Of a stretch of DNA of 64,000 nt, positions 1 through 30,773 are shown one piece after another. The first letter of the stretch is position 1; every line of letters starts with the position of its first letter. The stretch comes from Streptosporangium saharense. Its GTDB lineage: Bacteria > Actinomycetota > Actinomycetes > Streptosporangiales > Streptosporangiaceae. The position numbers and the translations under genes were made by a program. The stretch spans positions 186,001 to 250,000 of the forward strand of contig NZ_JACHJP010000004.1 in assembly GCF_014203715.1 (NCBI RefSeq), written 5' to 3'. The notes below the pieces were generated by a model, which was not told the DNA's origin, ran no database searches, and saw only the letters and a list, made by a program, of their open reading frames with translations.

Positions 1-238
1 CGTCGACCTGCCGACCGCCTTCTACGTGACCGCGGCCCAGGTCGAGAACTCCAAGCTGGTCGGCCAGTTCGGCGCGGCCTCCGGCACGCCCGAGGTCTTC
101 GGCGCGGTCTTCGAGAAGGGCAGCCCGCTGGTGCGCTGCGTCAACGAGGCGATCGGCAGGCTGACCGACTCCGGTGAACTGGTCAAGATCGAGAAGGAGT
201 GGCTCGGCTCGGCGGCGGGCGCTCCGGAGCTGAAGTAG
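1..238 (+). CDS. Amino-acid ABC transporter substrate-binding protein (3' end only)
   Basis: The reading frame is open from base 2 to the TAG at 236-238; the 5' part lies outside the window. The visible 78 residues contain the C-terminal lobe signature of family 3 polar amino-acid binding proteins: FEKGSPLVRCVNEAI, then a helix ending EKEWLG. Proteins of this family are secreted or lipid-anchored and deliver an amino acid to the membrane permease. The following permease and ATPase genes overlap in series, so this is the first visible gene of a binding-protein/permease/ATPase operon. The ligand cannot be read from this fragment. Confidence 0.85.
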   Translation, partial: VDLPTAFYVTAAQVENSKLVGQFGAASGTPEVFGAVFEKGSPLVRCVNEAIGRLTDSGELVKIEKEWLGSAAGAPELK

Positions 239-1101
239 TGGCCGTCCGATCCACGCCGGACGCCTCCGGCTGGGTGAAGAGCGCCCGGCAGGTGGAACGG
301 GAACGCCTGCTCAGGCGGCGCTCGATCCGCTCGGGCTCGATCGCGACCGTCTCGACGCTCCTGGTGGTCGTCCTGCTGGTCTGGGGCGTCACCGCCTCGC
401 CCGGCTGGGAGCGGGTGCGGGAGACGTTCTTCGACCCCGAGCAGTTCGTCAGGGCGTTCCCCGACGTGCTGAGCGGGTTCCTGCTCAACGTCAAGATCTT
501 CCTGATCGCCGAGCCGCTGGTGCTCCTCGTCGGCCTGTCGGTCGCGCTGGTCCGCGGCCTCAGGTCGCCGGTGTTCTTCCCGCTGCGGGCCCTCGCGGTC
601 GCCTACACCGACATCTTCCGGGGCGTGCCGACGATCCTGGTCATCTATCTCGTCGGCTTCGGCCTGCCCGCGCTCGGCCTGCAGGGCATGCCGACGGACC
701 TGGCGACGCTGGGCGTCATCGCGCTCACGCTGTCCTACGGGGCCTACGTCGCCGAGGTCTTCAGGGCGGGCATCGACTCCGTCCACCCCAGCCAGATCGC
801 CGCGGCCAGGTCTCTTGGGCTCGGCCACGGCGGCACCATGCGGCACGTGGTGCTGCCGCAGGCCGTACGACGGGTGGTGCCGCCGCTGCTCAACGACTTC
901 GTCTCGCTGCAGAAGGACACTGCGCTCGTCGCCACGATCGGCCCGCTCGAAGCGCTGCGCCAGGCCCAGATCCACGCGGCGAGCACGTTCAACTACACCC
1001 CCTACCTGGTCGGGGCGCTGCTGTTCATCCTGCTGACCATCCCGCTGGCCCGCCTCACCGACTATCTGGCGGCCCGTTCACAACGGCGGAGGGGCCAGTG
1101 A
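238..1101 (+). CDS. Amino-acid ABC transporter permease (HisM/GlnP type)
   Basis: A 287-residue inner-membrane permease that moves an amino acid inward with the ATPase encoded next. The start is taken as the GTG at 238, which shares one base with the preceding stop (TAGTG) and implies coupling; a GTG at 199 would overlap the previous gene more deeply. It has an N-terminal transmembrane helix near residues 37-57, further helices, and the EAA loop that docks the ATPase at about residues 186-206 (AARSLGLGHGG then LPQAVRRVVPPL). The long basic N-terminal stretch before the first helix is typical of actinobacterial members. Confidence 0.9.
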   Translation: MAVRSTPDASGWVKSARQVERERLLRRRSIRSGSIATVSTLLVVVLLVWGVTASPGWERVRETFFDPEQFVRAFPDVLSGFLLNVKIFLIAEPLVLLVGLSVALVRGLRSPVFFPLRALAVAYTDIFRGVPTILVIYLVGFGLPALGLQGMPTDLATLGVIALTLSYGAYVAEVFRAGIDSVHPSQIAAARSLGLGHGGTMRHVVLPQAVRRVVPPLLNDFVSLQKDTALVATIGPLEALRQAQIHAASTFNYTPYLVGALLFILLTIPLARLTDYLAARSQRRRGQ

Positions 1102-1850
1102 AGGACCATAGCCTGCTGACCGTCGAGGGTCTGTGGAAGAGCTACCACGGCCATGCCGTACTGCGTGGGATCGATCTGGAGGTACGGCCTCACGAGGTCG
1201 TCTGCCTGGTCGGGGCCTCGGGGTCGGGCAAGTCCACGCTGCTGCGCTGTGTGAACCTGCTGGAGACCGTGGACGACGGCGCCATCCACCTCGACGGCCG
1301 GGACATCACCGACGTCCGCGTCGATCCCGACGCCGTGCGCAAGCGCATGGGGGTCGTGTTCCAGGCCTTCAACCTCTTCCCGCACATGACCGTGCTCGAC
1401 AACATCACGCTCGCCCCCCGCAAGGTGCACGGGACCGGCAGGCGAGAGGCCGAGCAGCAGGCCCTTGAGCTGCTGGAGAGGTTCGGCCTGGCCGACAAGG
1501 CGAAGGCGTATCCCGACAGGCTCTCCGGCGGCCAGCAGCAGCGGGTGGCCATCATCAGGGCCCTGGCCGTCAGGCCGCTGCTGATGCTGCTCGACGAGGT
1601 GACCTCCGCGCTCGACCCGGCGCTGGTCGCGGAGGTCCTCGGGGTCATCAGGGAGCTCAAGGGAAGCGGGATGACCATGATCCTGACGACCCACGAGATG
1701 GGCTTCTGCCGGGAGATCGCCGACACCGTCTGCTTCCTCGACAACGGCGTGCTCCTGGAGAAGGCGCCCCCCGAGGAGTTCTTCACCGACCCCAAGGAGC
1801 CCAGGACCAGGCAGTTCCTGCGCAGTGTGCTCGACGCCCGGCGTATCTGA
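1098..1850 (+). CDS. Amino-acid ABC transporter ATP-binding protein (GlnQ/HisP type)
   Basis: A 250-residue ATPase that powers the permease just upstream. Walker A is GASGSGKST at residues 39-47, the Q-loop is in VFQAFNLFPH near 88-97, the signature LSGGQ is at 142-146, Walker B ends in LLDE at 164-167, and the switch histidine is in TTHEM. The GTG start overlaps the permease stop by four bases (GTGA), so translation is probably coupled. The gene ends only three bases before a convergent permease gene, leaving no room for a separate terminator hairpin. Confidence 0.95.
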   Translation: MKDHSLLTVEGLWKSYHGHAVLRGIDLEVRPHEVVCLVGASGSGKSTLLRCVNLLETVDDGAIHLDGRDITDVRVDPDAVRKRMGVVFQAFNLFPHMTVLDNITLAPRKVHGTGRREAEQQALELLERFGLADKAKAYPDRLSGGQQQRVAIIRALAVRPLLMLLDEVTSALDPALVAEVLGVIRELKGSGMTMILTTHEMGFCREIADTVCFLDNGVLLEKAPPEEFFTDPKEPRTRQFLRSVLDARRI

Positions 1851-1853
1851 GCC

Positions 1854-3401
1854 TCAGCGTCTGTGCCTTCCTCGAAGGCCGGATCCCACGGGGGCCGTCG
1901 CCCGGTCGTTGCCGGACAGCACGCTGTTGTGCCTGCCGTACAGGAGGTAGACCAGCAGGCCGACGGCCATCCAGGCGGCGAAGTACAGCCAGGTGACGAT
2001 CTGGAGGTTGACCAGCAGCCACAGGCAGGCGGCGATCGAGGCGACCGGCACGAAGGGGGAGAACGGCACCCGGAAGCCCCTGGGCAGGTCGGGCATGGTC
2101 CGCCGCATCCTGAGGACTCCCGCGGCCACGGCCACGAAGACGAACAGGGTGCCGATCACGACCAGCGGTTCGAGCGTGAGTACCGGCACGAACTCGGCCA
2201 GGAGGATCGCCACGCCGCCGATGAGCAGCGTCACCCGGGTCGGGCTGTGGTAGCGCCGGTTGACCCTGGCCAGTGAGCGGGGGAACAGGCCGTCCCTGGC
2301 CATGGAGAACATGACGCGGGTCAGGCCGACGAGCAGCACCAGCACGACCGTGGTGAGGCCCAGGACCGCGCCCAGGTTGATGACGTGCACCATGAAGCCC
2401 TCGCCCGCGGCGCGGAAGGCGTTGGCGAGCGGCGCTTCGACGTCGATCCTGTCGTAGGAGATCATGCCGACCATCACCAGCGCGACCGCGATGTAGACGA
2501 CCGTGGTGACGATCAGGCTGCGGATGATGCCCTTCGGCACAGAAAGGGGCGCGTCCTCCGCCTCCTCCGCGGCCGTGGCCACCACGTCGAAGCCGATGTA
2601 GGCGAAGGTGATGACCGCCGAGGCGGCGAAGATGCCGAACCAGCCGAACGCGCCGGGCTGGCCGAACAGCAGGCCGAGCAGCGGCGAGTGCAGCGCGTCG
2701 ACGGAGGCGCCCGCGGGGGCCGGGGGAACCGGGATGGCCGACAGGTTGCGCTGGTCGAAGTGGGTGACACCGACCACGATGACCGCGCCGATGGCCAGCA
2801 GCTTGGCGGCGACGATGATCCGCAGGGCCCGCAGGCCGATCCTGGCGCCCAGCGTGATCACGGCCGTCAACAGCACCAGGATGAACAGGGTGAACAGGTC
2901 GAACCCCTCGGACCGGCCGGTGATCGAGGCCAGGGGCTCGGGGAAACGTATCCCGAGGTCGGTGAGGAGTTGGGAGGCGTACAGCGACCAGACGCGTGAG
3001 ACGCCCGCGCTGGCCAGCAGCAGTTCGAGCACCAGCGCCCAGCCGACGGCCCAGGCCCAGACCTCGCCGAAGATGACGTAGGTGAAGGTGTAGGCGCTGC
3101 CCGAGGTCGGCAGCGCCGAGGATAACTCGGCGAAACAGAAGGCGACGAGCAGGCTGGTGATACCGGCGATCATGAAGGAGAGGACGACCCCGGGGCCGGC
3201 CATGGTGGCCGCCTGGCGTCCGGCGAGGCTGAAGATGCCCGCCCCGATCATGACGCCGACGCCCATGACGACGAGGTCCATGGGGCCGTACGCCTTCGGC
3301 AGGCCGTGACGCGCACCGCCGGTCCATCGGTTTGTCGCTTCACTGGGGGGTAGGCGGCGGACGATCGACGAGGAGTGACCTTCGGGCACGACGTGTCCCA
3401 A
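1854..3401 (-). CDS. APC-family amino-acid permease (cationic amino-acid transporter type)
   Basis: About 515 residues with 12 or more predicted membrane helices. The first helix carries the APC-superfamily substrate-site pattern GVMIGAGIFSLAG, and IGFDVVATAAEEAEDAP is the conserved loop of the cationic amino-acid transporter (CAT/YfnA) group. It likely imports or exchanges amino acids by proton or sodium coupling. The TTG at 3401 gives the longest product; a downstream GTG at about 3389 is also possible because the first 35 residues are not conserved in character. It is convergent with the amino-acid ABC operon, with a 3-bp gap. Substrate is not deducible. Confidence 0.88.
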   Translation of the reverse strand: MGHVVPEGHSSSIVRRLPPSEATNRWTGGARHGLPKAYGPMDLVVMGVGVMIGAGIFSLAGRQAATMAGPGVVLSFMIAGITSLLVAFCFAELSSALPTSGSAYTFTYVIFGEVWAWAVGWALVLELLLASAGVSRVWSLYASQLLTDLGIRFPEPLASITGRSEGFDLFTLFILVLLTAVITLGARIGLRALRIIVAAKLLAIGAVIVVGVTHFDQRNLSAIPVPPAPAGASVDALHSPLLGLLFGQPGAFGWFGIFAASAVITFAYIGFDVVATAAEEAEDAPLSVPKGIIRSLIVTTVVYIAVALVMVGMISYDRIDVEAPLANAFRAAGEGFMVHVINLGAVLGLTTVVLVLLVGLTRVMFSMARDGLFPRSLARVNRRYHSPTRVTLLIGGVAILLAEFVPVLTLEPLVVIGTLFVFVAVAAGVLRMRRTMPDLPRGFRVPFSPFVPVASIAACLWLLVNLQIVTWLYFAAWMAVGLLVYLLYGRHNSVLSGNDRATAPVGSGLRGRHRR

Positions 3402-3499
3402 TCATGGAGGGTGGACAACCGTATTGCCGGACTGTTCACAGTGCCGCAGGGGGCGGCGCGGGACAAGAGTCTCCTGGTTACGTGGCGGACACCTCCCGA

Positions 3500-4810
3500 T
3501 CACGCACCGATCACCAGCCACGCCCTGCCCCGAGCGCGCAGTCCCAGGGCGAGGAAGCGGGCGCCCATCCACACCCCCAGCGCCAGCCACAGCGCGACCA
3601 GACCGCCGCCCGACAGGATGACCGCCAGCGCCACGGGAAGGTAGGCCAGCGTCGTCCACAGGCCCGCCCAGGCGAGATAGCGCTGGTCACCGGCGCCGAT
3701 GAGCACCCCGTCCAGGACGAAGACCACCCCGGCGACCGGCTGCAGGAGCGCCACGACCAGTAGCGGGCCGAGCAGGTGCTCGGCCGTCTGGGCGCTCACG
3801 TCGAAGACCCCCGGCACGAACGGCCTGGCCACCACGACCAGCAGCCCGAGCACCACGCCGGAGCCGACCCCCCACACGACCATCCTGCGGGTCGCCTCCC
3901 GCGTCGCCTCGGCGTCCCCGGCGCCCAGGGTGCGGCCCGTGATGGCCTGCCCGGCGATGGCGATGGCGTCCAGGGCGAAGGCCAGCAGCGTCCAGATCCG
4001 CAGGGCGATCGTGTGGGCCTCGATCTGCTCCTCTCCCATGCGGGTGGCCAGCGTGGCGGCCACGGCCAGCACCACCTGCAGGCACGCCGTACGGATGATC
4101 AACGCGACCCCGGCCGTGCCCGCGGCCCTGATGCCCGCGAGGTCGGGGCGGACCGGCGCGCCGTACCGGCCGAAGACGAGGGCCAGGTAGACGGCGGCGC
4201 CCAGCGACTGGGCCAGCACCGTGCCCCACGCCGAGCCCGCGACGCCCCAGCCGAGGCCGAGGACGAACAGGAGGTTGAGTAGCGCGTTCAGCGCGAAGGA
4301 GCCGACCGAGACCAGCAGCGGGGTCGTGGTGTCCTGCATGCCCCGCAGCACGCCGGTCCCGGCGAGCACCAGCAGCATGGCGGGCACGCCGAGCAGGCTG
4401 ATCCGCAGGTAGGTCACCGCCTGCAGGGCCAGCTCGCCCTCCGCGCCGACCAGGGCGACCAGCGAGGGCGCGAGTGGCCAGACCACGGCGATGATCACCA
4501 CCCCGGCCGCCGCGGCGAGCCAGAGCCCGTCGCCGCCCTGCCGTACGGCCTGGGCGGTGTTGCCCGCGCCGACCTGACGCGCGACCGCGGCCGTGGTGCC
4601 GTAGGCGAGGAAGACGCACAGGGCGACCAGCGCGCCGAGCACCGTGCTCGCCACCCCGACCGCGCCGAGCGCGGGCGCGGGCAGGTGGCTGACGATGACG
4701 GTGTCGGTCAGCAGGAACAGGGGTTCGGCCACCAACGCCCCGAACGCGGGGATCGCCAGACGCAGGATCTGCCTGTCGTGGTCGCGACCCGTGGGGGAGG
4801 TAAGCGGCAT
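3500..4810 (-). CDS. MATE family efflux transporter (DinF-like)
   Basis: A 436-residue membrane protein of the multidrug/toxin extrusion family, expected to export organic compounds in exchange for H+ or Na+. It begins with the MatE pattern LAIPAFGALVAEPLFLLTDT and repeats a similar layout in the second half (ACLQVVLAVAATLATRMG), as expected of two six-helix bundles. The ATG at 4810 is chosen because conserved sequence starts a few residues later; the reading frame stays open upstream to 4942, but those extra 44 residues cross the DnaA-box region and look non-coding. Confidence 0.9.
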   Translation of the reverse strand: MPLTSPTGRDHDRQILRLAIPAFGALVAEPLFLLTDTVIVSHLPAPALGAVGVASTVLGALVALCVFLAYGTTAAVARQVGAGNTAQAVRQGGDGLWLAAAAGVVIIAVVWPLAPSLVALVGAEGELALQAVTYLRISLLGVPAMLLVLAGTGVLRGMQDTTTPLLVSVGSFALNALLNLLFVLGLGWGVAGSAWGTVLAQSLGAAVYLALVFGRYGAPVRPDLAGIRAAGTAGVALIIRTACLQVVLAVAATLATRMGEEQIEAHTIALRIWTLLAFALDAIAIAGQAITGRTLGAGDAEATREATRRMVVWGVGSGVVLGLLVVVARPFVPGVFDVSAQTAEHLLGPLLVVALLQPVAGVVFVLDGVLIGAGDQRYLAWAGLWTTLAYLPVALAVILSGGGLVALWLALGVWMGARFLALGLRARGRAWLVIGA

Positions 4811-5138
4811 AGCTGCATTGTGTCTCTTACCACCGAGAAGTTCGTCAGGGGGGACCAACAGGACGGCGGAGGAGGCTCTCGGCGTGTCGCCGCAACTTTC
4901 TTTTCTCCACAGGCGGTGGATGGAGTTTTCCCAGCTCGGCAAGGTGTTGTGGACAACCTGCCCTGGTTATCCACAGGACTGTCCCCAGGCTGCCCACATG
5001 TCTGGGCGAGAACTGCACACCTTATCCACACCCCTGTCGACAGTCCGCGTTGCCACGTCGTCCAGGGAGCGCGAGACTGTCACACCGGTCGGCTAAACCT
5101 TAAGATGGCGAAACCATGTTCGAATGAGGGGGTGCGAG
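4811..5138. other. Divergent intergenic region between MATE gene and dnaB
   Basis: A 328-bp non-coding region holding four DnaA-box-like 9-mers between 4903 and 5030 and a possible dnaB promoter. The hexamer TAAGAT at 5101-5106 is preceded 17 bases earlier by a weak TGTCAC at 5078-5083. The Shine-Dalgarno sequence of dnaB (AGGGGG) sits at 5128-5133. No further gene is visible. Confidence 0.7.
4903..5030. promoter_or_regulatory. Cluster of DnaA boxes upstream of dnaB
   Basis: Four 9-mers fit the actinobacterial DnaA-box consensus (T/C)(T/C)(G/A/C)TCCACA: TTCTCCACA at 4903-4911 (+), TTGTCCACA at 4948-4956 (- strand), TTATCCACA at 4967-4975 (+) and TTATCCACA at 5022-5030 (+). The third is the classic E. 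coli-type box and the second is the Streptomyces optimum. Because the site precedes dnaB and not dnaA-dnaN, DnaA-dependent control of helicase expression or DnaA titration is more likely than an origin. This role is inferred. Confidence 0.75.
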
Positions 5139-7238
5139 GTGAGCATCGCGGAGCCACCGGTCTTCGAGCCAGGGTTCGAGCGCACCCCGCCGAACAACAT
5201 CGAGGCCGAACAGTCCGTTCTCGGCGGCATGCTCCTGTCCAAGGACGCCATCGCCGACGTCGTCGAGGTCCTCAGGGCCGACGACTTCTACCGGCCCGCC
5301 CACCAGCTCATCTACGACATCATCACCGACCTGTACGGCAGAGGCGACCCGGCCGACGCCGTCACCATCTTCGGTGAGCTGCAGAAACGCGGCGAGGTCG
5401 CCCGTGTCGGAGGCGCCGCCTACCTCCACACGCTGACCGCCGTCGTGCCCACGGCCGCCAACGCGGGCTACTACGCGCGCATCGTCCGCGAACAGGCCAT
5501 CCTCAGGCGCCTCATCGAGGCCGGCACCCGCATCGTCTCCTTCGGGTACGGCGGGCAGGACGAGGAGGTCGACGACCTCGTCGACCGCGCCCAGGCCGAG
5601 ATCTACAAGGTCACAGAACGCCGCACCTCGGAGGACTACGTCCCCCTCGCCGAGATCATGCCCGGCGCCCTCGACGAGCTTGAGGCCATCGGCGGCAGAA
5701 GCGGCCAGATGGTCGGCGTCCCCACCGGCTTCCAGGACCTCGACAGCCTCACCAACGGCCTTCACCCCGGCCAGATGATCGTCGTGGCCGCCCGGCCCGC
5801 CATCGGCAAGGCCCTCGCCCTCGACACCCCCCTGCCGACCCCCGACGGCTGGACGACCATGGGCGAGGTCAGCCGGGGCGACCGCCTCATCGGCGCCGAC
5901 GGCAGGCCGACCCGGGTCGTCGCGGTGACCGACGTGCTGCGTGACCGCCCCTGCTACGAGGTCGAGTTCAGCGACGGCACGGTGATCGTCGCCGACGCCC
6001 TGCACCAGTGGCGGACGACCGTGGACCACGCCCTCGTCGTCCACGGCGGCCCTGCCCGGCAGAGCGTGGTGACGACCGAGGAGATCGCCCGCACCCTGCA
6101 CCGCGCCGAGGACGGCTGGCCGGTCCACGCGGTCGCGGTCACGGCGCCGTTCGACCTGCCGGAGCGCGACCTGCCGCTTCCGCCGTACGAACTCGGCCTC
6201 ACGCTCGGCGGGACCGGTTTCCCGGGCAGGCGCGTCCCCGGGGCCTACCTGCGGGCCTCAACAGGTCAGCGCCGCGCCCTGCTCGCGGGTCTGCTGGAGG
6301 GCCGCGACGGGCAGATCCGCTTCGCCGCCACGGAGGGGCCGCTCGCCGGGGACGTCCTCGAACTGGCCCTGAGCCTCGGCCACCGGGCGACCATGCGCGA
6401 CACCGGCGACCACCACGTGATCGACCTCCCCGAGGTGTCCGTCCGGTACGTCGTCGACGTGCGCGCGGTCCCCTCGGTGCCGGTCAGGTGCGTCGAGGTG
6501 GACAACGCCGACCACATGTACCTCGCGGGAAGGGCCTGCGTCCCCACCCACAACAGCACGCTCGGCCTCGACTTCGCCAGGTCCGCCGCGATCAGGCACG
6601 GCATGACCACCGTCGTGTTCTCCCTGGAGATGTCGCGCAACGAGATCACGATGCGTCTGCTGTCCGCCGAGGCCAAGGTGGCGCTGCACGCGATGCGCTC
6701 GGGCACGATGACCGACGACGACTGGGCGAAACTGGCAAGACGGATGGGCGAGGTCGCCGAGGCGCCCCTGTTCATCGACGACTCGCCCAACATGTCGATG
6801 ATGGAGATCAGGGCCAAGTGCCGCCGCCTCAAGCAGCGCAACGACCTGCGCTTCGTCATCATCGACTACCTGCAGCTGATGTCCTCGCCCAAGAAGACCG
6901 AGAGCCGCCAGAACGAGGTCTCCGAGATCTCCCGCTCGATCAAGCTCCTCGCCAAGGAGCTTGAGGTCCCGGTCATCGCGATCTCCCAGCTGAACCGAGG
7001 CCCGGAACAGCGAACGGACAAACGTCCCATGGTTAGCGACCTTCGCGAATCCGGATCGATCGAGCAAGATGCGGACATGGTCATACTTTTGCACCGAGAA
7101 GACGCCTACGAGCGGGAGTCGCCGCGGGCTGGGGAGGCTGACCTGATCGTGGCCAAGCACCGTAACGGTCCGACCGCGACGGTCACCGTGGCCTTCCAGG
7201 GGCACTACAGCCGCTTCGTCGACATGGCCTCGCACTGA
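5139..7238 (+). CDS. dnaB: Replicative DNA helicase DnaB, interrupted by an intein
   Basis: A 699-residue precursor. The N-extein carries the helicase N-domain (NIEAEQSVLGGMLLS) and runs into the RecA-like domain, stopping inside the P-loop after ARPAIGK (residues 218-224). The intein follows (225-472), and the C-extein resumes with the P-loop serine, STLGLDFARS, then Walker B (FVIIDYLQLM) and the arginine-finger region (SDLRESGSIEQDADM). After splicing the helicase is about 451 residues, the normal length. GTG at 5139 is chosen because AGGGGG lies six bases upstream; the ATG at 5124 overlaps that Shine-Dalgarno sequence. The spliced hexamer unwinds DNA at replication forks. Until the intein is removed the ATP site is split and should be inactive. 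Confidence 0.96.
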   Translation: MSIAEPPVFEPGFERTPPNNIEAEQSVLGGMLLSKDAIADVVEVLRADDFYRPAHQLIYDIITDLYGRGDPADAVTIFGELQKRGEVARVGGAAYLHTLTAVVPTAANAGYYARIVREQAILRRLIEAGTRIVSFGYGGQDEEVDDLVDRAQAEIYKVTERRTSEDYVPLAEIMPGALDELEAIGGRSGQMVGVPTGFQDLDSLTNGLHPGQMIVVAARPAIGKALALDTPLPTPDGWTTMGEVSRGDRLIGADGRPTRVVAVTDVLRDRPCYEVEFSDGTVIVADALHQWRTTVDHALVVHGGPARQSVVTTEEIARTLHRAEDGWPVHAVAVTAPFDLPERDLPLPPYELGLTLGGTGFPGRRVPGAYLRASTGQRRALLAGLLEGRDGQIRFAATEGPLAGDVLELALSLGHRATMRDTGDHHVIDLPEVSVRYVVDVRAVPSVPVRCVEVDNADHMYLAGRACVPTHNSTLGLDFARSAAIRHGMTTVVFSLEMSRNEITMRLLSAEAKVALHAMRSGTMTDDDWAKLARRMGEVAEAPLFIDDSPNMSMMEIRAKCRRLKQRNDLRFVIIDYLQLMSSPKKTESRQNEVSEISRSIKLLAKELEVPVIAISQLNRGPEQRTDKRPMVSDLRESGSIEQDADMVILLHREDAYERESPRAGEADLIVAKHRNGPTATVTVAFQGHYSRFVDMASH
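5811..6554 (+). other. Class 3 intein in the DnaB P-loop, endonuclease degenerate
   Basis: The insert of 248 residues lies between Lys224 and Ser473 of the precursor. It starts with Ala, not Cys or Ser (ALALDTPLPTPDGWTTMGEV), and carries the class 3 triad: Trp at block B position 12 (HQW, Trp291), Cys at block F position 4 (VRC, Cys451) and Thr before the terminal His-Asn (PTHN, Thr470), with Ser473 as the +1 residue. Known class 3 inteins make their first branched ester on the F-block Cys. The middle keeps remnants of a LAGLIDADG endonuclease: YELGLTLGGTG (350-360) and LLAGLLEGRDG (381-391). The catalytic Asp is missing from both, and most of the segment between them is deleted. Confidence 0.9.
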
Positions 7239-7281
7239 GCACTGAGCCGTTTCTGTCGTACCCGGGTGGTTGACTGGCGCG

Positions 7282-7857
7282 ATGAGCGATGTCCCGGAGA
7301 GTCTCTTCTTCCCGTCGGCCGAGGAGTTCGAGGAGTGGCTCGTCGCCAACCACGACTCCTCGTCAGGGCTCTGGCTCAGACTCGCCAAGAAGGTGCCGGG
7401 GGTCGAGTCGCTGGACTACGTCCAGGCGCTCGACGTGGCGCTGTGCTACGGCTGGATCGACGGTCAGAAGAAGAGCCTGGACGCGACGCACTGGCTGCAG
7501 CGGTTCACCCCGCGCAGGCCGCGGAGCAGGTGGTCGAAGGTCAACCGCGACAAGGTCGCCGCGCTGCTCGAACAGGGCAGGATGCGGCCCGCGGGCCTGC
7601 TGGAGGTCGAGCGCGCGAAGGCGGACGGCCGCTGGGCGGCGGCCTACGACGGGTCGCGGACCGCGACCGTGCCCGAGGACCTGGAGCTGGCCCTGGCCGG
7701 CAACCCCGTCGCGCGGGAGTTCTTCGCGACGCTGGACAGCCGTAACCGCTACGCGGTGCTGCACCGGGTGCAGGAGGCCAAGAAGCCGGAGACCAGGGCA
7801 CGCCGCATCGAGAAGTTCGTCACGATGCTGGCCGAGCACAAGAAGGTCTATCCCTAG
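7282..7857 (+). CDS. YdeI/OmpD-associated family protein
   Basis: 191 residues matching the YdeI/OmpD-associated family: FPSAEEFEEWL at the N-terminus, then WLRLAKK, then the hallmark ALCYGWIDGQ (about residues 53-62) and RRPRSRWSKVN, closing with the R-rich helix TRARRIEKFV. The biochemical function is poorly defined; some relatives are linked to resistance to cationic peptides or bacteriocins. ATG at 7282 is chosen over a TTG at 7270 because the conserved block starts immediately after it. It overlaps the convergent phosphoesterase gene by four bases. Confidence 0.85.
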   Translation: MSDVPESLFFPSAEEFEEWLVANHDSSSGLWLRLAKKVPGVESLDYVQALDVALCYGWIDGQKKSLDATHWLQRFTPRRPRSRWSKVNRDKVAALLEQGRMRPAGLLEVERAKADGRWAAAYDGSRTATVPEDLELALAGNPVAREFFATLDSRNRYAVLHRVQEAKKPETRARRIEKFVTMLAEHKKVYP

Positions 7858-8591
7858 AGGATCGGGCGGAAGTGCGTGGTGAGGCGGTCGCCGTCCAGGA
7901 CGTGCAGGGCGATCTGTGGCGGCTGGGAGGGGTCGAGCGGGCGGCGTTCCACGGTCTCCGTGGGAAGGAGCGCGGTGTTGATCACTCCGGGGGCGACCAG
8001 TAGGGGACGACCGGCGAACCAGGTGCTCGCGGCGGTGTGGGCGTGCCCGGCCAGGACGGCGACCACCCGGGGGTGACGGCGCAGGACGGCTTCGAGCCGC
8101 TCGGGTTCGCCAAGCCGGATGTCGTCCACGTACGGCACGCCCAGCGGGACGGCGGGGTGGTGCATGCCCACGAGGGCGGGGACGTCGGGCGACTCGGCGA
8201 GCACCCCGTCGAGCCAGGTCAGGGTCTCCTCCGTCAGCAGGCCGTCATGCCGTCCGGGGATGCTGGAGTCGCACAGGACGAGGGTGAGGCCGTCGAGCCG
8301 CAGGACCTGGTTGATCGGGGCGTCGCCGTCCTGGCCGAGGAGGACCTTGCGGAAGGCGGCCCGGGAGTCGTGGTTGCCGGGACAGATCACGGTCGGGTGG
8401 CGTGAGGTCAGCGCCTCCTTCGCGATCTCGTACTCCTCGACCGTGCCGTGGTCGGCGACGTCCCCGGTCACGACGACGGCGTCAAGCGGGCCGGGCAGGC
8501 TGTCCAGGTGACGCATGACGGCTCGGGCTCGTTCGACGCTGCGAGGGGAGTCGTCGAGGTGGATGTCGCTCACGTGAGCCAGTGTCAGCAT
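7854..8591 (-). CDS. Metallophosphoesterase (CpdA-like phosphodiesterase)
   Basis: A 245-residue calcineurin-fold phosphoesterase. The metal-binding motifs are present in order: DIHL (Asp9, His11), GDV (about residue 42), GNHD (about 72-75), H in MHHP (about 144) and GHAH (about 182-185). The GNHD and GHAH layout matches class III cyclic-nucleotide phosphodiesterases (CpdA/Rv0805 type), which also act on other phosphodiesters, so cAMP hydrolysis is plausible but unproved. ATG at 8591 is followed at once by the first beta strand (LTLAHVSDIH). Confidence 0.9.
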   Translation of the reverse strand: MLTLAHVSDIHLDDSPRSVERARAVMRHLDSLPGPLDAVVVTGDVADHGTVEEYEIAKEALTSRHPTVICPGNHDSRAAFRKVLLGQDGDAPINQVLRLDGLTLVLCDSSIPGRHDGLLTEETLTWLDGVLAESPDVPALVGMHHPAVPLGVPYVDDIRLGEPERLEAVLRRHPRVVAVLAGHAHTAASTWFAGRPLLVAPGVINTALLPTETVERRPLDPSQPPQIALHVLDGDRLTTHFRPIL

Positions 8592-27733: not shown

Positions 27734-27823
27734 GGTGGAGTCGCCTAGTGGCCGAGGGCGCACGCCTCGAAAGCGTGTGATGGGGCAACCTATCCGTGGG
27801 TTCAAATCCCACCTCCACCGCCA
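27734..27823 (+). tRNA. tRNA-Ser (CGA)
   Basis: Cloverleaf with acceptor GGTGGAG / CTCCACC, long variable arm as expected of Ser tRNAs, anticodon loop CTCGAAA with anticodon CGA, T-arm GTGGG-TTCAAAT-CCCAC, discriminator G and an encoded CCA at 27821-27823. Reads UCG codons. Confidence 0.95.
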
Positions 27824-30431: not shown

Positions 30432-30452
30432 CTTCTGCTGCTCAACCAAGCG

Positions 30453-30538
30453 CGGAGGATAGGAGATTCGAACTCCTGAGGGGTTGCCCCCAACACGCTT
30501 TCCAAGCGTGCGCCCTAGGCCAACTAGGCGAATCCTCC
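30453..30538 (-). tRNA. tRNA-Ser (GGA)
   Basis: Minus-strand cloverleaf: acceptor GGAGGAT / ATCCTCC, anticodon stem CACGC/GCGTG around TTGGAAA (anticodon GGA), long variable arm, T-arm AGGAG-TTCGAAT-CTCCT, discriminator G. The 3' CCA is not encoded (CGC follows), unlike the other Ser tRNA in this window. Confidence 0.94.
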
Positions 30539-30649
30539 GTGGAGAAGCTTACCGAACTTTCGGCAGTGCGTTGACCACATATTCGAGGCATGTTCTTCGG
30601 TGGGCGTTCGGGACGCCGAGCACTCGCCGCAGAGGCTAGACTGTGCCAG

Positions 30650-30737
30650 GACCCCTCGCGCGGCGTCATCCTGTGAACCTCCCCAGGGTCGGAAGGCAGC
30701 AAGGATAAGCAGGCTCTGGCGGGTGTGCGAGGGGTCT
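30650..30737 (+). ncRNA. ffs: Signal recognition particle RNA, small bacterial type
   Basis: The conserved apical domain is present: CTGTGAACC, then GGTCGGAAGGCAGCAAGG, matching the SRP RNA tetraloop and symmetric loop. Terminal arms pair: GACCCCTCGC (30650-30659) with GCGAGGGGTC (30727-30736). About 90 nt; ends are approximate by a few bases. It directly precedes dnaX, the usual arrangement in actinobacteria. It works with Ffh to target membrane proteins. Confidence 0.92.
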
Positions 30738-30773
30738 CTTCGTTGCAGGCTCCCTCGCAGGTGGGATCGTCGC

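Follow-up and report, generated by a model that had tools for sequence, protein, structure and literature searches.

The replicative helicase gene dnaB of Streptosporangium saharense is interrupted, as we conclude with high confidence, by a class 3 intein that can splice, occupies the DnaB-b site, derives from a homing element, seems to have lost its working LAGLIDADG endonuclease and is inherited with its host gene. The anatomy of this element, its site, its catalytic residues, its predicted fold and the purifying selection acting on it were observed or computed here. All coordinates refer to the window, a stretch of 64,000 nucleotides of contig NZ_JACHJP010000004.1. Numbers with G and L are our labels for genomes and loci, and PMC identifiers stand for the parts of the published articles that were available to us. 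The relevant features are as follows, with the precursor numbered from its ATG.

5124..7238, + strand: dnaB, replicative helicase precursor, 704 aa from ATG (Pfam, NCBIfam)
5124..5810, + strand: N-extein, ending in the Walker A Gly-Lys (Lys codon 5808-5810)
5811..6554, + strand: class 3 intein at the DnaB-b (P-loop) site, 248 aa, precursor residues 230-477
5952..5954, + strand: codon of Cys48, at the position of the redox-disulfide Cys48 of M. smegmatis DnaBi1
5994..6011, + strand: block B DxxHQW, with Asp62, His65 (B:10) and Trp67 (B:12)
6021..6434, + strand: probable decayed homing-endonuclease remnant or linker, intein residues 71-208, limits approximate (alignment to G001, Pfam, dN/dS)
6192..6218, + strand: putative remnant of the first LAGLIDADG motif, LGLTLGGTG against LGVWLGDG in G001
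6282..6311, + strand: putative remnant of the second LAGLIDADG motif, LAGLLEGRDG against LAGLLDTDG in G001
6489..6491, + strand: Cys227 (F:4), predicted initiating nucleophile
6537..6539, + strand: Cys243, a third cysteine close to the C-terminal junction
6546..6554, + strand: Thr246 (G:5), His247 and the terminal Asn248
6555..7238, + strand: C-extein, starting with Ser+1 (the Walker A Ser), stop codon included

The insert lies in frame within the Walker A loop of DnaB, after its Lys and before its Ser (...ARPAIGK | STLGLDFARS...), which is the site of the DnaB-b allele. It begins with Ala1 and ends with Thr-His-Asn, followed by Ser+1. Its removal leaves a complete host protein, a 456-aa DnaB with the Walker A loop ARPAIGKSTLGLDF. 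The dnaB precursor matches the Pfam families DnaB_C (4.5e-102) and DnaB N-domain (8.5e-36) and exceeds the cut-off of NCBIfam TIGR00665. Because all 12 intein-free congeners read ARPAIGKSTLGLDFARS at this loop, with no residue gained or lost, the insertion point is exact. The placement given in an earlier note on this DNA, an insert at 5811-6554 splitting Walker A between Lys and Ser, is confirmed to the base, and the Ala start and the HQW (Trp67), VRC (Cys227) and PTHN (Thr246) motifs that it named are all found in the translated insert. Its Cys451 and Asn472 are correct for an alternative in-frame GTG start at 5139, which gives 699 aa; from the ATG they are Cys456 and Asn477, that is, intein Cys227 and Asn248.

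The composition of the DNA did not support a recent arrival of the intein, since GC3 is 0.956 for the intein and 0.934 and 0.890 for the two exteins. Around dnaB (window 199-4942 and 7270-8591), Pfam identified an ABC transporter permease and ATPase, an amino-acid permease, a MATE transporter, a YdeI/OmdA-type protein and a calcineurin-like phosphoesterase, and none of these six neighbours had a phage-like look. Elsewhere in the window lie two tRNA-Ser genes (CGA, GGA) and a small bacterial SRP RNA (27734-27823, 30452-30538 and 30647-30742).

The class of the intein follows from several lines of evidence. Position 1 is Ala rather than Ser, Thr or Cys, and the Trp B:12, Cys F:4 and Thr G:5 of class 3 inteins are present as W67, C227 and T246, together with His B:10 (H65), the terminal H247-N248 and Ser+1. 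In alignments to class 3 DnaB inteins W67, C227 and T246 are in register, and the earlier assignment of these positions holds against both the solved class 3 inteins and the 110 other distinct P-loop inteins that we parsed. Using phmmer, the best matches were 6RIX (M. chimaera DnaB1, 6.7e-43), 6RIY (3.6e-42) and 6BS8 (M. smegmatis, 3.8e-41), covering at most residues 1-73 and 211-248. The next intein in the list, 6RIZ (E 0.13), is described in the available part of PMC7664689 as a gp41-1 intein engineered to bear the class 3 WCT motif. The sole Pfam match to the insert was to Hint and stayed below threshold (E 0.044; 14.2 bits, cut-off 32.1), and the NCBIfam C-terminal intein model scored just below its cut-off. 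An AlphaFold2 model of the intein, built from a 64-row alignment of its own sequence and 63 of 80 loci of a named collection, reached pLDDT 89.3 and pTM 0.87. Foldseek placed 6RIY, 6RIX and 6BS8, all class 3, in ranks 1-7 (target TM 0.82-0.87), followed by the endonuclease inteins PI-SceI and PhoVMA/TliVMA (query TM 0.6-0.7), a ranking that is as expected if the modelled fold combines a Hint domain with what remains of an endonuclease. By E-values and Foldseek ranks, therefore, the intein is nearer to class 3 than to class 1 inteins. A class 1 or class 2 intein was ruled out by Ala1, the W/C/T residues and the class 3 kinship. Class 3 is a rarer, already described chemical type of intein. A 2011 paper reportedly widened its definition.

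How widespread is this family? We gathered loci by similarity to the S. saharense DnaB or intein, so the resulting set is a biased sample, and parsed 125 of 153 sequences (the others being empty-site loci, 18 plus 5 refetched, 3 paralogue loci, and L032 and L132, which could not be parsed) with a pattern that asked for a residue other than S, T or K after GK and for DnaB-like sequence after the insert; A1, W, C, T and HN were not demanded. This yielded 111 distinct inteins of 196-501 aa at the P-loop site. A1, C48, D62, H65 and W67 occur in 111/111, and C227, T246, H247 and N248 in 110/111; the exception, L102, was clipped early by the pattern and shows the VRC...PTHN end. Cys243 is not peculiar to S. 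saharense, being carried by 18 of the 111 inteins, S. saharense counted.

Across the order, 238 of 345 genomes match the S. saharense intein at E <= 0.001 in any gene, and 536 of 556 candidate stretches in the named collection encode a relative, the best 80 of the 536 being used here. The earlier description of class 3 inteins as known mainly from phages and mycobacterial DnaB proved too narrow: among the matches listed are Nonomuraea, Actinomadura, Frankia, Micromonospora, Streptomyces, Rhodococcus, Nocardia, Pseudonocardia and others. Partial matches occur in 355 of 50,697 phage records, none covering 80% of the query; the 40 of 355 listed fall in terminases, exonucleases, frames annotated as HNH endonuclease, one hypothetical protein and one phage DnaB-like helicase. 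These partial matches agree with the relationship between DnaB-b inteins and those of mycobacteriophage TerL reported in the available text of PMC5050341. Aligned class 3 inteins found no other place in the rest of the S. saharense genome at E <= 0.001.

The earlier note had the anatomy and the class right and made no mention of endonuclease decay. An intact LAGLIDADG endonuclease, the mark of a full-length homing intein, is absent here. Compared with the 501-aa intein of the congener G001, the S. saharense intein lacks long stretches ahead of and within the endonuclease, and its middle part gave no Pfam endonuclease match at E up to 1, whereas the G001 intein matches LAGLIDADG_3 (3.3e-9) and Hom_end (9.9e-8). 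A pattern for both LAGLIDADG motifs is present in 39 of the 111 inteins and absent from those of S. saharense and G008; it does not prove that an endonuclease is active, as the 239-aa Nonomuraea intein L035 still fits it.

Next, we compared selection on the splicing part, the middle and the exteins by dN/dS, using the Nei-Gojobori method; the values are rough because of this method, a dS of about 0.5-1.1 and the GC-rich DNA. Against G001 and G007, the splicing part gave 0.15, the middle 0.47-0.49 and the exteins 0.06-0.07. With seven further relatives, the corresponding ranges were 0.11-0.27, 0.40-0.78 and 0.09-0.14, some of these comparisons (L063-L066) including decay on the relative's side too. 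A separate estimate for the middle against L034, L067, L069 and L077 gave 0.49, 0.82, 0.77 and 0.72. Eight control pairs, hand-picked among longer inteins of 335-501 aa, gave 0.04-0.28 for the splicing part and 0.10-0.32 for the middle. This contrast argues that selection maintains the splicing part and is relaxed on the middle, which is still not wholly free. From these sequence comparisons we infer that the S. saharense endonuclease is dead, and the altered LAGLIDADG motifs and the relaxed selection in the middle indicate that the intein probably no longer homes.

That a residual or trans-acting endonuclease still spreads the intein would fit the likeness of the predicted model to endonuclease inteins such as PI-SceI and a middle dN/dS below 1. 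We regard this as very improbable, since both LAGLIDADG motifs are changed, the intein falls 253 residues short of its G001 and G007 counterparts, and no endonuclease family is recognized at an E-value at which the 501-aa congener intein matches two. A second alternative, that the intein is broken, as in the class 3 pseudogene Arsp-FB24 Arth_1007 (available part of PMC3196547), and that the cell uses another helicase, appears extremely unlikely. It could draw on that precedent and on a second gene with a DnaB C-domain elsewhere in the genome. However, the signature residues of the intein are all intact, and the second gene (G000:C2:242843-243727; L152:2844-3728) encodes a protein of 295 aa that lacks the N-domain and whose Walker A reads GVGSTT, with no Lys. 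Of the 15 other genus genomes, only G003 has a close copy (78%) of this paralogue at E up to 1e-20, and that copy contains an internal stop. Residues 236-293 of the paralogue share 78% identity with the DnaB C-end in five genus genomes. A third DnaB-family match, on contig 13, lies barely above the cut-off and covers 64 of 255 positions. Because the genome contains a single match to the DnaB N-domain and the paralogue lacks the Walker A Lys, the interrupted gene is very probably the sole replicative helicase gene and must splice; on these sequence grounds, splicing is very probably required in the cell.

Thus, our preferred reading is an intein that still splices and has stopped homing. For its class 3 homologues (M. 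smegmatis, M. chimaera and phage), the available portions of PMC6195587, PMC7664689, PMC7360933, PMC5050341 and PMC3196547 describe attack by Cys F:4, two branched intermediates and Asn cyclization, and by analogy we infer that the S. saharense protein splices by the same steps. Cys227 would attack the Lys(-1)-Ala1 peptide bond directly, forming a branched thioester; the chain would then transfer to Ser+1, and cyclization of Asn248 would release the 248-aa intein. This would close the Walker A loop GKST, making DnaB an ATPase. The sequence suggests descent from a homing element followed by loss of the working LAGLIDADG endonuclease, and the intein would now be passed on with its host gene because only its exact removal leaves a working dnaB.

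Could the intein instead be kept as a switch, in which a Cys48-Cys227 disulfide or zinc stops splicing, and hence replication, under stress? In the parts of PMC6195587 and PMC7360933 available to us, splicing of M. smegmatis DnaBi1 is inhibited by peroxide and zinc; the first describes a Cys48/Cys118 pair in which Cys48 forms the redox disulfide, and the second a zinc ion bound in 6OWN by C118, V119 and Y128. The S. saharense Cys48 and Cys227 correspond to that pair, C227, V228 and Y237 occupy the zinc-ligand places in the alignment, and the intein persists with no recognizable endonuclease. By analogy, the chemistry makes sensitivity to redox state and zinc through Cys48/Cys227 likely, and a coupling of replication to conditions through splicing is plausible from the M. 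smegmatis homologue; this sensitivity need not explain why the intein persists. Against retention as a switch, 12 of the 16 genus members lack the intein. Moreover, none of the Cys48 variants tried in M. smegmatis spliced (available part of PMC6195587), so the conservation of Cys48 does not show a switch. We therefore consider this explanation unlikely. A more specific proposal, that selection keeps the endonuclease-free intein as a stress-responsive replication brake in which Cys243 adds a second redox partner for Cys227, strikes us as quite improbable. If it were true, the genus would be a natural experiment on adaptive intein loss or retention.

The genus sample, S. saharense and 15 other genomes, shows stages of the homing cycle (invasion, decay and loss) at one site. 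The DnaB-b site is empty in 12 of the 16 genomes, carries 501-aa endonuclease inteins in two (G001, G007), a decaying intein in one (G008) and the shortened intein in S. saharense. Apart from the intein, the DnaB proteins of the genus are about 95% identical.

In the host tree the genus forms one supported group (SH-aLRT 99) containing 12 empty and 4 filled sites. A single ancestor for the four genus inteins was rejected by the AU test (p 8e-89), mostly owing to G008; the genus group was fixed before the tree was built, and the other groupings tested were chosen after it. G008 groups elsewhere than with the G001/G007 inteins (one group rejected, p 4e-58). The grouping of S. saharense with G001/G007 was not rejected (p 0.116) and is absent from the best tree, and that with the shortened Nonomuraea inteins L034-L036 was weakly rejected (p 0.018). 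The best tree places the S. saharense intein beside the Actinomadura-type inteins L051, L052 and L069, with support of 82/91, which is not strong. At least two lineages are needed for the genus inteins, through two or more arrivals or an old polymorphism with losses.

Further observations concern the other genus loci. The 501-aa inteins of G001 and G007 (L143/L144) carry, besides the LAGLIDADG motifs, a stretch with several cysteine pairs (CVVCG, TCGRSC, CPDCG and QCQTC) that resembles a zinc-binding insert within the endonuclease; this stretch recurs in G018 (L146) and, degraded, in G008 (L145). Within a long open frame of L143, L145 and L147-L149 (G001, G008, G014, G012 and G002), the match to DnaB breaks off near residue 643-652 (S. 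saharense numbering). This suggests another intein, at a second site in DnaB, in which case both sites would be occupied in G001 and G008. The P-loop site is empty in G014; a weaker match to the start of the intein lies elsewhere in that genome, at G014:C3:210485-210835 (38% over query 224-345), probably a related intein in another gene. Name searches of the literature found no reports on the DnaB inteins of Nonomuraea or the inteins of Streptosporangium, which is no proof of absence.

The S. saharense intein is a new member of a known, common family, whose DnaB-b allele is already known from mycobacteria and has been crystallized (6BS8, 6RIX); alone, it is one more DnaB-b class 3 intein in a large known family. 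The genus, by displaying empty, endonuclease-bearing, decaying and shortened states, makes the homing cycle testable with near-identical host proteins and allows one to ask if an intein whose endonuclease is dead benefits its host or is just tolerated. Among its relatives, the DnaB-b inteins of G001, G007 and Nonomuraea L063-L066 and L068 share its site and signature, with a splicing part 80-85% identical. Those of G001 and G007 differ in having both LAGLIDADG motifs, and the Nonomuraea inteins L063-L066 are also shortened (239-260 aa), although their break points differ from those in S. saharense. Mycobacteriophage class 3 inteins of terminases and exonucleases show partial likeness to its N-terminal splicing part (40 of 355 records listed), in host proteins mostly other than DnaB. 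The M. chimaera DnaB1 intein (6RIX, 6RIY) is its best match in sequence and fold and shares with it the Cys-His-Thr triad described in the available text of PMC7664689, but has a shorter chain of 145 aa. With M. smegmatis DnaBi1 (6BS8, 6OWN; available part of PMC6195587) it has in common the host gene, the P-loop insertion point, Ala1, C48, DxxH, W67, Cys F:4, THN and Ser+1, and A1, C48, D62, H65 and W67 even bear the same residue numbers. In contrast, DnaBi1 has 139 aa and no endonuclease, whereas the S. saharense intein has 248 aa with a seemingly decayed one, and Cys243 of S. saharense is Met in 6BS8.
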